A stretch of DNA of 64,000 nt. Origin: Fervidobacterium pennivorans DSM 9078 (GTDB lineage: Bacteria; Thermotogota; Thermotogae; Thermotogales; Fervidobacteriaceae). Location: NCBI RefSeq assembly GCF_000235405.2, contig NC_017095.1, forward strand, positions 1,265,501 through 1,329,500, given 5' to 3'. Shown here piece by piece: positions 36,702-41,005 of the stretch (position 1 is its first letter; the number at the start of each line of letters is the position of its first letter). The translations under genes and the position numbers were made by a program. The notes under the pieces are model-generated. The model was not told the origin of the DNA. It worked only from the letters and a program-made list of their open reading frames with translations, and ran no database searches.

Positions 36702-37826
36702 TTATTTAAGAGAATTAGCTGAAATTCTTGTAAAGAAGGTCATATTGTCGTTTTTTGCAACAAGAATAACAATGTCTTTCGTTGCGTCCCCCATCTTATC
36801 TATAGTGATTGACCCAGTTACACCATCGTAGTTTTCGATATTCCTTATACCCAATGCTATCTTTTCCGGGTTTGTGCTTTTGACATTCTCAATAGCCTTC
36901 AAAATAATCATATAAGCATCGTACCCTAAGGCTGAAAGTGTCGAAGGCTTTTCTCCGTATCTCTTTTCATATAGCTCAACAAACCTTTTTCCCAAAGATG
37001 ATAGTGCCGCATCTGGGTGATAATGATCCGAGAAATACAAACCTTCAACCGCTTTACCACCTATTTTAATCAGTTCGGGGGCATTTGCTCCATCTCCCGC
37101 AAGGAAGTATCCTTTAAAGCCTAAAGCTCTTGCTTGTTGTGCGATTAAAGCTATCTCGTTGTAGTAACCAGCAATTAAAATGGCTTCACTACCAAAAGCT
37201 ATCGCCTGGGTGATTTGTGCACTAAAGTCTGTGTCTCCTGTTTTGTATTGAACTTGCAGTACTTTTCCACCAGATTTTTTGAACCTTTCGATGAAATAAT
37301 TCGAAAGCCCAACGCTATAATCCTGCTCAATATCTGTGAACACTGTAACTTTTGTTAGTTTCAAATTCTTTACTGCAAATTCCGCCAAGGCGGTCCCTTG
37401 CACAGGGTCTATGAAACAGACACGTGAGACAAATTTCTTCCCCTGCGTAACAAGGGGATTAGTTGATGCAGGGCTCAAGAGTGGAATTTTCTTACTCTCA
37501 GCTAACTCACCAGCAGCCATCGAATTACCACTCATTATTTCTCCAATCACTGCTACTACTTTTTCCCTGTCAATAAGTCTTGCCATTCCGTTGGCGGCTT
37601 CTGTTTTCTCACTCCTAGTGTCCATGTAAACAAGTTCAACTTTTTCCCCCAACACTGAACCTTTTTCGTTGTGAGCTATCTCAATACCCCTTTTCACTAA
37701 ATCCCCAGCAGCGGCTAACGGACCTGTTAGTGGCAATAGAACCCCTATTTTTACGACCGCAAAGGAACTCATATAAATCAAAGAAATGAGTGTAAACAAT
37801 AGTGCCTTCAATGTTTTACCCAACAT
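36702..37826 (-). CDS. Branched-chain amino-acid-type ABC substrate-binding protein (LivJ-like)
   Basis: 374 residues. Signal peptide to about residue 23 (LLFTLISLIYMSSFAV), then the leucine-binding-protein opening VKIGVLLPLTGPLAAAG and the matching VAVIGEIMSGN and TDIEQDYSVG segments. Binds branched-chain or related amino acids in the periplasm. No permease or ATPase genes are adjacent, so it is an orphan receptor here. AAAGGAGG eight bases before ATG 37826 beats the GTG at 37835. It follows trpB2 by 24 bases and may be cotranscribed with it under the trp attenuator. Confidence 0.85.
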   Translation of the reverse strand: MLGKTLKALLFTLISLIYMSSFAVVKIGVLLPLTGPLAAAGDLVKRGIEIAHNEKGSVLGEKVELVYMDTRSEKTEAANGMARLIDREKVVAVIGEIMSGNSMAAGELAESKKIPLLSPASTNPLVTQGKKFVSRVCFIDPVQGTALAEFAVKNLKLTKVTVFTDIEQDYSVGLSNYFIERFKKSGGKVLQVQYKTGDTDFSAQITQAIAFGSEAILIAGYYNEIALIAQQARALGFKGYFLAGDGANAPELIKIGGKAVEGLYFSDHYHPDAALSSLGKRFVELYEKRYGEKPSTLSALGYDAYMIILKAIENVKSTNPEKIALGIRNIENYDGVTGSITIDKMGDATKDIVILVAKNDNMTFFTRISANSLK

Positions 37827-37850
37827 AGTTCGCACCTCCTTTAGACAACT

Positions 37851-39170: not shown

Positions 39171-39204
39171 AAAAAAGCCGGGTACGTTTTTACACGTACC
39201 CGGC
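39171..39204 (-). terminator. Attenuator terminator in the trpB2 leader
   Basis: On the minus strand GCCGGGTACG and CGTACCCGGC form a perfect 10-bp stem with an 8-base loop followed by TTTTTTATTT, ending 40 bases before the trpB2 start. It can form only when the antiterminator (39200-39285) does not. Confidence 0.9.
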
Positions 39205-39285
39205 GATTGTCCACACTTTGTATTTTTTGTTGTTGCCTATTTTCTCCTTAGGTGTGGCAACAACAGACTGGTGGACAACCACCGG
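39200..39285 (-). promoter_or_regulatory. trpB2 antiterminator
   Basis: On the minus strand CCGGTGGTTGTCCAC (39285-39271) can pair over 15 bases with GTGGACAATCGCCGG (39214-39200), two of them G-U pairs; inside, GTTGTTGCC (39264-39256) pairs with GGCAACAAC (39237-39229). The outer helix uses the first five bases of the terminator stem, so the two structures exclude each other. Confidence 0.8.
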
Positions 39286-39367
39286 TTGTCCACCACCAAG
39301 AATTTGTTGAATTTATTTGATATTGATTAGCATTCAAAGAAAATCTAAATTTACTCACCAAAATCAT
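39248..39367 (-). CDS. trpL: trp leader peptide with three consecutive Trp codons
   Basis: 39-codon ORF, ATG at 39367, TAA at 39250-39248. It ends in SWWWTTGGCPPVCCCHT: Trp24-Trp26 are encoded by TGG TGG TGG, directly before the hairpin at 39269-39295. A ribosome stalled there for lack of charged tRNA-Trp would cover that hairpin's 5' arm and let the antiterminator form. The ribosome binding site (GGACGG) is weak. Preceded by a promoter at 39397-39426. The last part of the peptide also has Cys codons TGT TGT TGC. Confidence 0.85.
   Translation of the reverse strand: MILVSKFRFSLNANQYQINSTNSWWWTTGGCPPVCCCHT
39269..39295 (-). promoter_or_regulatory. trp leader 1:2 hairpin (pause/protector)
   Basis: On the minus strand TGGTGGACAACC and GGTTGTCCACCA form a perfect 12-bp stem with loop GGT, starting at the second of the three Trp codons. 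It competes with the antiterminator for GGTTGTCCAC. Confidence 0.88.
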
Positions 39368-39396
39368 ACACCGTCCGTTATGCTGAGCTTTTTGGT

Positions 39397-39426
39397 ATTT
39401 TATCATAAACATTTGGAAAAAGTCAA
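39397..39426 (-). promoter_or_regulatory. Promoter of the trpL-trpB2 unit
   Basis: On the minus strand TTGACT (39426-39421), 18-base spacer, TAAAAT (39402-39397). The predicted RNA start is near 39390, about 23 bases before the leader ATG. Confidence 0.7.
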
Positions 39427-39463: not shown

Positions 39464-39760
39464 CTACTGTGCTTTGCATTTTTCAATCAACTCAGTCACA
39501 TATTTATCCATCATCTCTTCTACTTTTTCCTTCATTCCAGGCATTCCAAGAAATGAAGACTCAACAGTGATTATGATTCTATCTTTTTGAACTTCGATCG
39601 TTCCTTTCCCAAAGATACTAACCTTTGCTTCAAAGACGTTCTCACTTATTCTTGATATCTTCACGTTGAATTTAGAAATGTACGGTTCTGCTTCTTTCAC
39701 AGCAACATTGTAGAGTCTCTCTGGCTCACAGGTATGCACGTATTCCTTCCTTATCGTCAT
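39464..39760 (-). CDS. Small conserved-type protein of unknown function
   Basis: 98 residues, family not recognised. One helix, then three or four strands rich in alternating charged and hydrophobic residues, then a C-terminal helix (KEKVEEMMDKYVTELIEKC): an alpha/beta fold such as a small SRPBCC or dodecin-like domain. Lies 12 bases after the radical SAM gene, same direction; probably cotranscribed. Confidence 0.55.
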   Translation of the reverse strand: MTIRKEYVHTCEPERLYNVAVKEAEPYISKFNVKISRISENVFEAKVSIFGKGTIEVQKDRIIITVESSFLGMPGMKEKVEEMMDKYVTELIEKCKAQ

Positions 39761-39772
39761 CCTCTTCCCCCT

Positions 39773-40972
39773 TTAAAATTCGTTCCCAACTTTGATTTTC
39801 ATATTTTGAACAGCCTTTTTTGCGAGTTGCTCTTGTTTTAACCAATATCCATCAAGAATACCTTTTGAAGCAAGTTGCCCAAGGAATTTGTAATGGTAAT
39901 CTTTCAAAACACCGGGTCCGACATCTGAAAGAGGTGTGCCTGGTAGAGGCATAAAGGTGTGGGCATGAATTTTTGCATTGTACCTCTTAACAATCTTCTC
40001 GATGAAATTGAACGTTTGTTCCACATCTTCTTTTGTTTCAAACGGAAATCCGAATATGAAATCTACTTTCGCATAAAAACCGTTGTTAGCCAATATTTCA
40101 AGCGCTTCTTCTACCTTCTCAACAGTATGCCCACGACGTATAAGCTGTAGTATCCTATTGCTTCCACTTTGTGCGCCTATAACGATATAATCATGGTTCA
40201 CATATTTTTTGATAACTTTGACCATCTCATCGGTAACACTCTCAGGCCTTACATCTGATGGGAACGTTCCAAAGTATATCTCTTTTACTCCTGTAGATTT
40301 TATTTTATAAAGCAACTCATCAACGACTTCAGGCATCGGTTTAACTCCATTCTTACTACCATACCCGAACGCATTTGGTGTAATAAATCGTGCAATCGTT
40401 TTTCCATGCTTTACAGAAATTTTTTCGTATTCGACAATTTGTTCTATACTTCGGTGCCTAACTATTTTGCCAGCCAATCTTGGTGTCTGGCAGTATCCAC
40501 AATCGAAAGGACAACCACGGGAAATCTCTATAGGCATGAAGAGTTTCTTCTTCTCACATATAGGAGGGTATTTATTCAAATCGACACGATTTTTTACCCC
40601 ATCAAAGATTCTATTTTCAGGTAACTCACCTTTCAGAAATCTGATGATATTCTCTTCTCCATCACCAACAAAGACATAATCAAAACCAAGCTCTAATAGT
40701 TCGAAAGGTAGCGCCGTTGCATGTGGACCACCAGCGATTACAGTGTAACCATGTTTTTTCAACACTCTAAGTTCTTCAATTACCGTATCCAAATCGAAGG
40801 TCATAAATGAAAAAGCAACTGCAGTATCCGATACCGGATACTGCAAGATATCAGCAACGTTTTTAGTTTCTAAAATCTCCACATTTTCAATCTCACTAAG
40901 CACAGCAGAAACAAGTGCAGTAACACTGTAACGATTATGCTTTGTTGTTCTGAATATGAGCCTTTTAAACAT
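39773..40972 (-). CDS. B12-binding-domain radical SAM protein
   Basis: 399 residues. The N-terminal 130 residues look like a cobalamin-binding Rossmann domain (VIAGGPHATALP; FVGDGEENI) but the DxHxxG cobalamin motif is not obvious. The radical SAM cluster is RGCPFDCGYC (CxxxCxxC), followed by the TIM-barrel segments FITPNAFGYG, YFGTFPSDVRPE and GAQSGSNRIL. Similar archaeal and bacterial proteins have no assigned reaction. ATG 40972 has AAAGGA close upstream; the TTG at 40999 is in frame. Confidence 0.75.
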   Translation of the reverse strand: MFKRLIFRTTKHNRYSVTALVSAVLSEIENVEILETKNVADILQYPVSDTAVAFSFMTFDLDTVIEELRVLKKHGYTVIAGGPHATALPFELLELGFDYVFVGDGEENIIRFLKGELPENRIFDGVKNRVDLNKYPPICEKKKLFMPIEISRGCPFDCGYCQTPRLAGKIVRHRSIEQIVEYEKISVKHGKTIARFITPNAFGYGSKNGVKPMPEVVDELLYKIKSTGVKEIYFGTFPSDVRPESVTDEMVKVIKKYVNHDYIVIGAQSGSNRILQLIRRGHTVEKVEEALEILANNGFYAKVDFIFGFPFETKEDVEQTFNFIEKIVKRYNAKIHAHTFMPLPGTPLSDVGPGVLKDYHYKFLGQLASKGILDGYWLKQEQLAKKAVQNMKIKVGNEF

Positions 40973-41005
40973 ACTTATCCTTTTCGAGATTACCTCCAAT
41001 TATCC

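Follow-up and report, generated by a model that had tools for sequence, protein, structure and literature searches.

The trpL leader of E. coli carries consecutive Trp codons at the opening of region 1, forms the alternative 1:2, 2:3 and 3:4 helices and ends in a terminator located before the first gene. In actinobacteria (Corynebacterium, Streptomyces), leader peptides with Trp codons and terminators precede the trp operons, and attenuators have also been described before the trpB2A operon of C. diphtheriae and before trpS2 of S. avermitilis (PMC1262725). The label trpB2 denotes in those cases the second trpB copy of a genome, not necessarily a member of the stand-alone family. Another 5' leader, RF04312, bears a terminator and sometimes lies before trpB; its authors were unable to exclude a classic attenuator (PMC11109978). 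According to a survey with Rfam models that covered 11 Thermotogales genomes, amino acid attenuators are essentially or mostly confined to gammaproteobacteria, with few transfers (PMC3766115), and attenuation has been considered superfluous for detached trp genes (PMC2395257).

The DNA analyzed here, termed the window, is a stretch of 64,000 nucleotides from Fervidobacterium pennivorans DSM 9078. An initial annotation had placed a promoter, a Trp leader, a hairpin, an antiterminator and a terminator before trpB2, and all of these elements were found, in the order given and on the minus strand (Table 1). A leader of 39 codons with TGG TGG TGG, a 12-bp hairpin at the Trp codons, which begins in the second of them, and a 15-bp antiterminator are present as had been described. 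The terminator and its T run are likewise present, but the stem consists of 11 bp and not of the 10 bp originally assigned. The 5' arm of the 1:2 hairpin is formed by Trp codons 2 and 3 together with the bases that follow them. Immediately 5' of the leader ORF lies an SD-like sequence, GGACGGTG. Two in-frame upstream ATGs, at 39412 and 39406, are inside the promoter, such that the ATG at 39367 is the first that can be transcribed. In the sister species G003, the promoter is conserved at the same position and a GTG occupies the aligned leader start, again after the same SD-like sequence. Farther upstream, a 98-aa ORF (39464-39760, minus strand) that matches PHA_gran_rgn and DUF5749 below threshold adjoins a radical SAM/B12-binding gene (39773-40999), an arrangement also seen in G001 and G003.

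Table 1. Features of the trpB2 locus and their positions in the window
Feature	Position	Strand	Remarks
Promoter, TTGACT (39426), 18 nt, TAAAAT (39397), TG before the -10	39397..39426	-	sigma-70-type
Leader ORF, 39 codons, MILVSKFRFSLNANQYQINSTNSWWWTTGGCPPVCCCHT	39248..39367 (ATG 39367, TAA 39248)	-	WWW(W) open frame in relatives
Control codons TGG TGG TGG (three consecutive Trp)	39290..39298	-	invariant in 13-sequence alignment
1:2 hairpin (anti-antiterminator), 12 bp	39269..39295	-	85% of cells paired, 13 sequences
Middle hairpin, 10 bp, inside antiterminator loop	39228..39265	-	carries leader stop codon
Region 2, 5' strand of 15-bp antiterminator (CCGGTGGTTGTCCAC)	39271..39285	-	
Region 3, 3' strand of 15-bp antiterminator (GTGGACAATCGCCGG)	39200..39214	-	final 5 nt common to terminator
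Intrinsic terminator, 11-bp stem (39204-39177) and T6	39171..39204	-	
trpB2, 426 aa	37851..39131	-	TIGR01415 648.8 bits (cut-off 518.85)
LivJ-like periplasmic binding protein gene (Peripla_BP_6)	36702..37835	-	15 nt 3' of trpB2

The locus resembles the E. coli trp attenuator (RF00513, Trp_leader) in its leader peptide with Trp codons, its three alternative helices and its intrinsic terminator. The sequence thus holds an ORF with the cognate codons, helices that share a segment, a 1:2 hairpin that includes the control codons and, as the target, a gene whose predicted activity concerns the cognate amino acid (trpB2, above the TIGR01415 cut-off), which together characterize attenuators of the trp type. 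It differs from E. coli trpL in that the leader ORF crosses region 2 and extends into the middle hairpin, whereas the E. coli ORF ends before region 2. The target differs as well: it is trpB2 alone or with livJ, instead of trpEDCBA. The actinobacterial attenuators belong to another phylum and their trpB2 is linked to trpA, while RF04312 mostly precedes an amino acid ABC transporter.

A ribosome-mediated transcription attenuator very probably links the expression of trpB2, and of the LivJ-like gene, to the level of charged tRNA-Trp. When charged tRNA-Trp is scarce, the ribosome would stall on the WWW codons and cover region 1, such that region 2 could pair with region 3 ahead of the synthesis of region 4 and transcription would read through into trpB2. 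When tryptophan is ample, the ribosome would reach the stop codon and either the 1:2 hairpin would re-form behind it or the ribosome itself would block region 2. With region 2 unavailable, regions 3 and 4 would form the terminator and transcription would end some 40 nt short of trpB2. If the leader were not translated, the 1:2 hairpin would form and trpB2 would be off. We infer the stalling, the read-through and the direction of the response from the arrangement of these elements, which supports the classical mechanism of the initial annotation, since the leader ORF is conserved in relatives, together with its Trp codons and the competing structures.

Predicted folds are consistent with this sequence of events. 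When region 1 is masked and region 4 has yet to be transcribed, the fold of lowest energy is the 15-bp antiterminator, with -39.4 kcal/mol at 37 °C and -14.4 kcal/mol at 75 °C. The middle hairpin stacks within the antiterminator loop, and this combined structure was the most stable one at each of 37, 65 and 75 °C. With the ribosome past the stop codon, the terminator is the best fold. The structures had been regarded as mutually exclusive. The helices do compete, but antiterminator and terminator overlap in only 5 nt (39204-39200), which restricts their exclusion to the terminator base: if region 4 has been made while region 1 is masked, the five shared nucleotides return to the terminator and a 10-bp remnant of the antiterminator stays. 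Since this remnant coexists with the terminator at equilibrium, the switch must be kinetic and depend on timing, a property shared with the trp attenuator of E. coli. The leader ORF continues past region 2, so a ribosome at the stop codon has left that region behind and the 1:2 hairpin can re-form. The middle hairpin is missing from the short leaders of genera g3 and g4, in which the stop codon is nearer; there, the end of region 2 would be covered by the ribosome itself. Termination at ample tryptophan should result from either arrangement of the stop codon.

In a sample of 20 genomes of the host family, the leader lies directly 5' of trpB2 in 13 that contain this gene. The leader peptide reads WWW(W)TTGGCPP in the host genus and the next genus and WWWxxG(N/D)CPP in g3 and g4, whereas its N-terminal part varies freely among the 13 leaders. 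Conservation of the ORF, the Trp codons and the competing structures, on which the attenuator proposal had been made to depend, is thus borne out. In an alignment of the 13 leaders, which come from four genera, 87% of the antiterminator and 93% of the terminator cells are paired, with three and six pairs, respectively, changed on both sides. For neither helix was the covariation score attained in any of 500 shuffles. In G006, the shared segment carries an A that has a U as its partner in the antiterminator and in the terminator alike. Covariation, which had been proposed as a check, therefore supports the antiterminator and the terminator but hardly the 1:2 hairpin, in which too little sequence variation is available for covariation to appear.

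Two natural REARRANGEMENTS were found among sister species, in G003 and G001. In G003, the closest relative as judged by trpB2 (92%), the promoter and the leader are intact and a gene for an IS110-family transposase lies between the leader and trpB2 (L106:4565-5722, numbered in trpB2 orientation; L216). The insertion is a natural uncoupling of the leader from trpB2. In G001 the order is leader-livJ-trpB2, the inverse of the trpB2-livJ order of the host, and the leader still stands at the head. In G002 the LivJ-like gene follows 31 nt after trpB2. Between G000, G001 and G002, the LivJ-like proteins show 71-80% identity, which places livJ in the attenuated unit of these three close species. In the host, the LivJ-like gene has the same direction as trpB2 and is presumably cotranscribed with it. 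The description of trpB2 as a lone gene must be qualified accordingly: it is correct for TrpA, IGP synthase and any other TrpB, but not for the neighboring gene. The LivJ-like protein is a candidate for a tryptophan- or indole-related binding protein.

The role of TrpB2 is debated, with indole rescue, trp-operon substitution and serine deamination as the proposed functions. It has been called an open question (PMC1854888), and high affinity for indole and use of O-phosphoserine have been reported (cited in PMC11917138). The product of the trpB2 gene in the window carries the tryptophan synthase motifs GSHKTN, ETGAGQ and GGGSN. With the TrpB1 model TIGR00263 it scores 173.4 bits, below the cut-off of 392.45 bits, and both its TIGR01415 score and the absence of TrpA from the genome identify it as a stand-alone TrpB2. 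It is the only TrpB homologue of the host genome, which is complete (2.17 Mb). TrpA (PF00290) and IGP synthase (PF00218) were absent from this genome at the cut-off, and the same searches were positive in 14 of 14 control genomes. A search of the host genome for tryptophanase was also negative, and no indole source of the host's own was detectable there. trpB2 is therefore an orphan of a tryptophan pathway whose other genes the host has lost and, lacking TrpA, IGP synthase, tryptophanase and a second TrpB, it would serve only for the synthesis of tryptophan from supplied indole. The regulated reaction would then be the formation of tryptophan from indole taken up from outside. The missing pathway and the Trp-specific switch together argue for the salvage of indole tuned by charged tRNA-Trp, as the initial annotation had suggested; the benefit of such salvage to the host is an ecological assumption.

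The leader is not confined to the host family. A covariance model of the 13 family leaders, run blind on 103 Thermotogota genomes, matched 23 of them. In 22 of the 23, a match heads trpB2: it is immediately 5' of the gene in 20, separated from it by livJ in G001 and by the IS element in G003. The 22 matches span seven genera and three families, including f8 and f10, which are outside the model. The sole match in the remaining genome, G085, is the unrelated locus L199, and this genome nonetheless has its own WWW leader before trpB2. The weak matches L199, L200 and L201 contain no Trp codons, were obtained mainly via their terminators and were rejected as chance. L199 precedes a gene for a glutamine-type binding protein and L201 another LivJ-like gene. 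L199 (reverse strand of G085:C7:57268-57349) is a terminator leader with a short ORF, MVSSFYGKLRPSIVEIKHHTRYGPVYSPGGTSLVAT, and not a Trp leader.

A script applied to upstream DNA detected an in-frame WWW leader ORF (once WYWW) before 57 of 65 trpB2 genes. With the addition of G060, G001 and G003, a WWW leader lies before trpB2 or heads its transcript in 60 of 67 assessable Thermotogota loci, which derive from 75 genomes with trpB2 after removal of G024 (contig end) and seven others (fragments or unfetched sequences). Strict TGGTGGTGG leader ORFs were present within 250 nt in 55 of 64 trpB2 upstream regions; dinucleotide shuffles gave an expectation of 0.05. The hairpin sequences are unrelated between families, as exemplified by f9, in which GCCCCTTC pairs with GAAGGGGC. 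The antiterminator was examined across families as the overlap of the duplex formed by the post-Trp segment with the 5' arm of the terminator; an earlier partition-function score of terminator-arm sequestration had carried no information, as the two helices have only the base of the arm in common. In all 55 testable leaders, pairing of the post-Trp segment overlaps the terminator 5' arm by at least 3 nt, and in 50 of them its pairing with the 5' flank and arm reaches z < -2. Counting from the Trp run, at least three of the first 15 nt are in a stem in 53 of the 55, and the energy of the 1:2 fold lies beyond z -2 in just 26. That WWW stays in frame even where the helices have been rewritten shows that the codons are selected and not the RNA shape alone.

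The seven leaderless loci belong to six g13 genomes (Thermotoga-like) and to G089 (g12), all of which have TrpA. Among genomes with TrpA, the leader is present in nine and absent in seven; without TrpA, it is present in 51 and absent in none (Fisher p about 1e-5, a value that ignores relatedness). The seven cases probably reflect one or two losses. WWW leaders with a terminator also lie immediately 5' of trp operons that begin with trpE or trpD, in G054, G056, G068, G029, G072 and others (loci L209, L210, L215, L211 and L214). They resemble the trpB2 leader in their WWW ORF and terminator but head trp operons in genomes that possess TrpA. G029 has a WWW leader before both its trp operon and its trpB2. 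The occurrence on trp operons as well as on trpB2 makes Trp attenuation a general control of tryptophan genes in Thermotogota.

Among 80 trpB2 loci of other phyla, a leader of this kind is absent from most. A WWW leader precedes trpB2 at the Ignavibacteria locus L002, and within the Ignavibacteria class a WWW leader combined with a terminator-like hairpin was found at 8 of 30 trpB2 loci (L219, L220, L227, L228, L230, L234, L235 and L238). Several of the genomes of this class that have the leader also have TrpA. Three further loci of the class (L229, L231 and L247) contain ORFs with WW only and no terminator and were rejected. Of the loci from the other phyla with WW-containing ORFs, L002 and L062 were followed up; L062 lacks the attenuator pattern and looks like chance.

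This distribution bears on the possibility that the main function of TrpB2 is another one, such as serine deamination or an unspecified PLP reaction, and that the Trp leader is incidental. A serine deaminase role has been proposed from phyletic patterns (reported in PMC1854888), and the NCBIfam name of the family is merely 'TrpB-like'. However, a Trp-specific leader at 60 of the 67 loci in Thermotogota, and also in certain genomes of the Ignavibacteria class, would be difficult to reconcile with an incidental role, the characterized proteins have poor serine deaminase activity (PMC1854888), and the tryptophan synthase motifs are in place. We consider this explanation unlikely.

An untranslated sensor of tRNA or of a metabolite, whether of the T-box kind or a riboswitch like RF04312, the 'trpB motif' of Rfam, is less likely still. 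Leaders of this type do control some trp genes, and trpB2 is preceded by a terminator. RF04312 attains 22 bits in this region, but the match is on the strand opposite to the mRNA and far below the cut-off of 59 bits. RF04312 has been reported from Firmicutes and Fusobacteria (PMC11109978). No Rfam family fitted the leader at either the gathering or the E-value threshold, the covariance models of the T-box (RF00230) and of Trp_leader (RF00513) included, and in the entire window Rfam and ARAGORN found only tRNAs. An untranslated sensor would not need the in-frame WWW that is kept across families with unrelated hairpins.

There is equally little in favor of a peptide that senses free tryptophan in the ribosome by arrest, as TnaC does, or of a leader peptide that acts in trans. 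Within the family, the leader peptide is strongly conserved after WWW (TTGGCPP or GNCPPP), but this conservation follows from the codons that form region 2, and in other families the corresponding residues are HSPPI, CCPDSVG or YDRYFGRT. Moreover, a sensor of the inducer type would act with the wrong sign on a biosynthetic gene. That the leader is a relic, or a simple constitutive terminator with a Trp-rich ORF arisen by chance, is hardly credible: the severed leader of G003 illustrates that tight control can be lost, but the frequency of strict WWW leaders far exceeds the shuffled expectation and compensatory changes occur in the antiterminator and the terminator.

We thus return to ribosome-mediated attenuation, a mechanism that is itself classical; it is the target and the phylum-wide distribution that are unusually informative. 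No report of a Trp attenuator in Thermotogota or before a stand-alone trpB2 was found in the open-access literature, nor was a description of the phylum-wide distribution; priority is uncertain. The leaders throughout the phylum qualify both the statement that amino acid attenuators are mostly gammaproteobacterial (PMC3766115) and the statement that detached trp genes do not need attenuation (PMC2395257).

A putative Trp-specific switch that precedes trpB2 across a phylum, in many genomes without TrpA, provides regulatory evidence that TrpB2 synthesizes tryptophan from indole. The host retains none of the other tryptophan genes searched for, yet it has kept the Trp switch before trpB2. On balance, we lean toward a broader interpretation, held with only slightly more confidence than doubt, in which the stand-alone trpB2 of all Thermotogota was ancestrally under Trp attenuation, a control that outlasted the trp operon and also occurs in a second phylum, in the Ignavibacteria class. 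TrpB2 would then act in vivo as a starvation-induced tryptophan synthase for the salvage of indole, and the LivJ-like protein of Fervidobacterium would belong to the same unit for the acquisition of tryptophan or indole.
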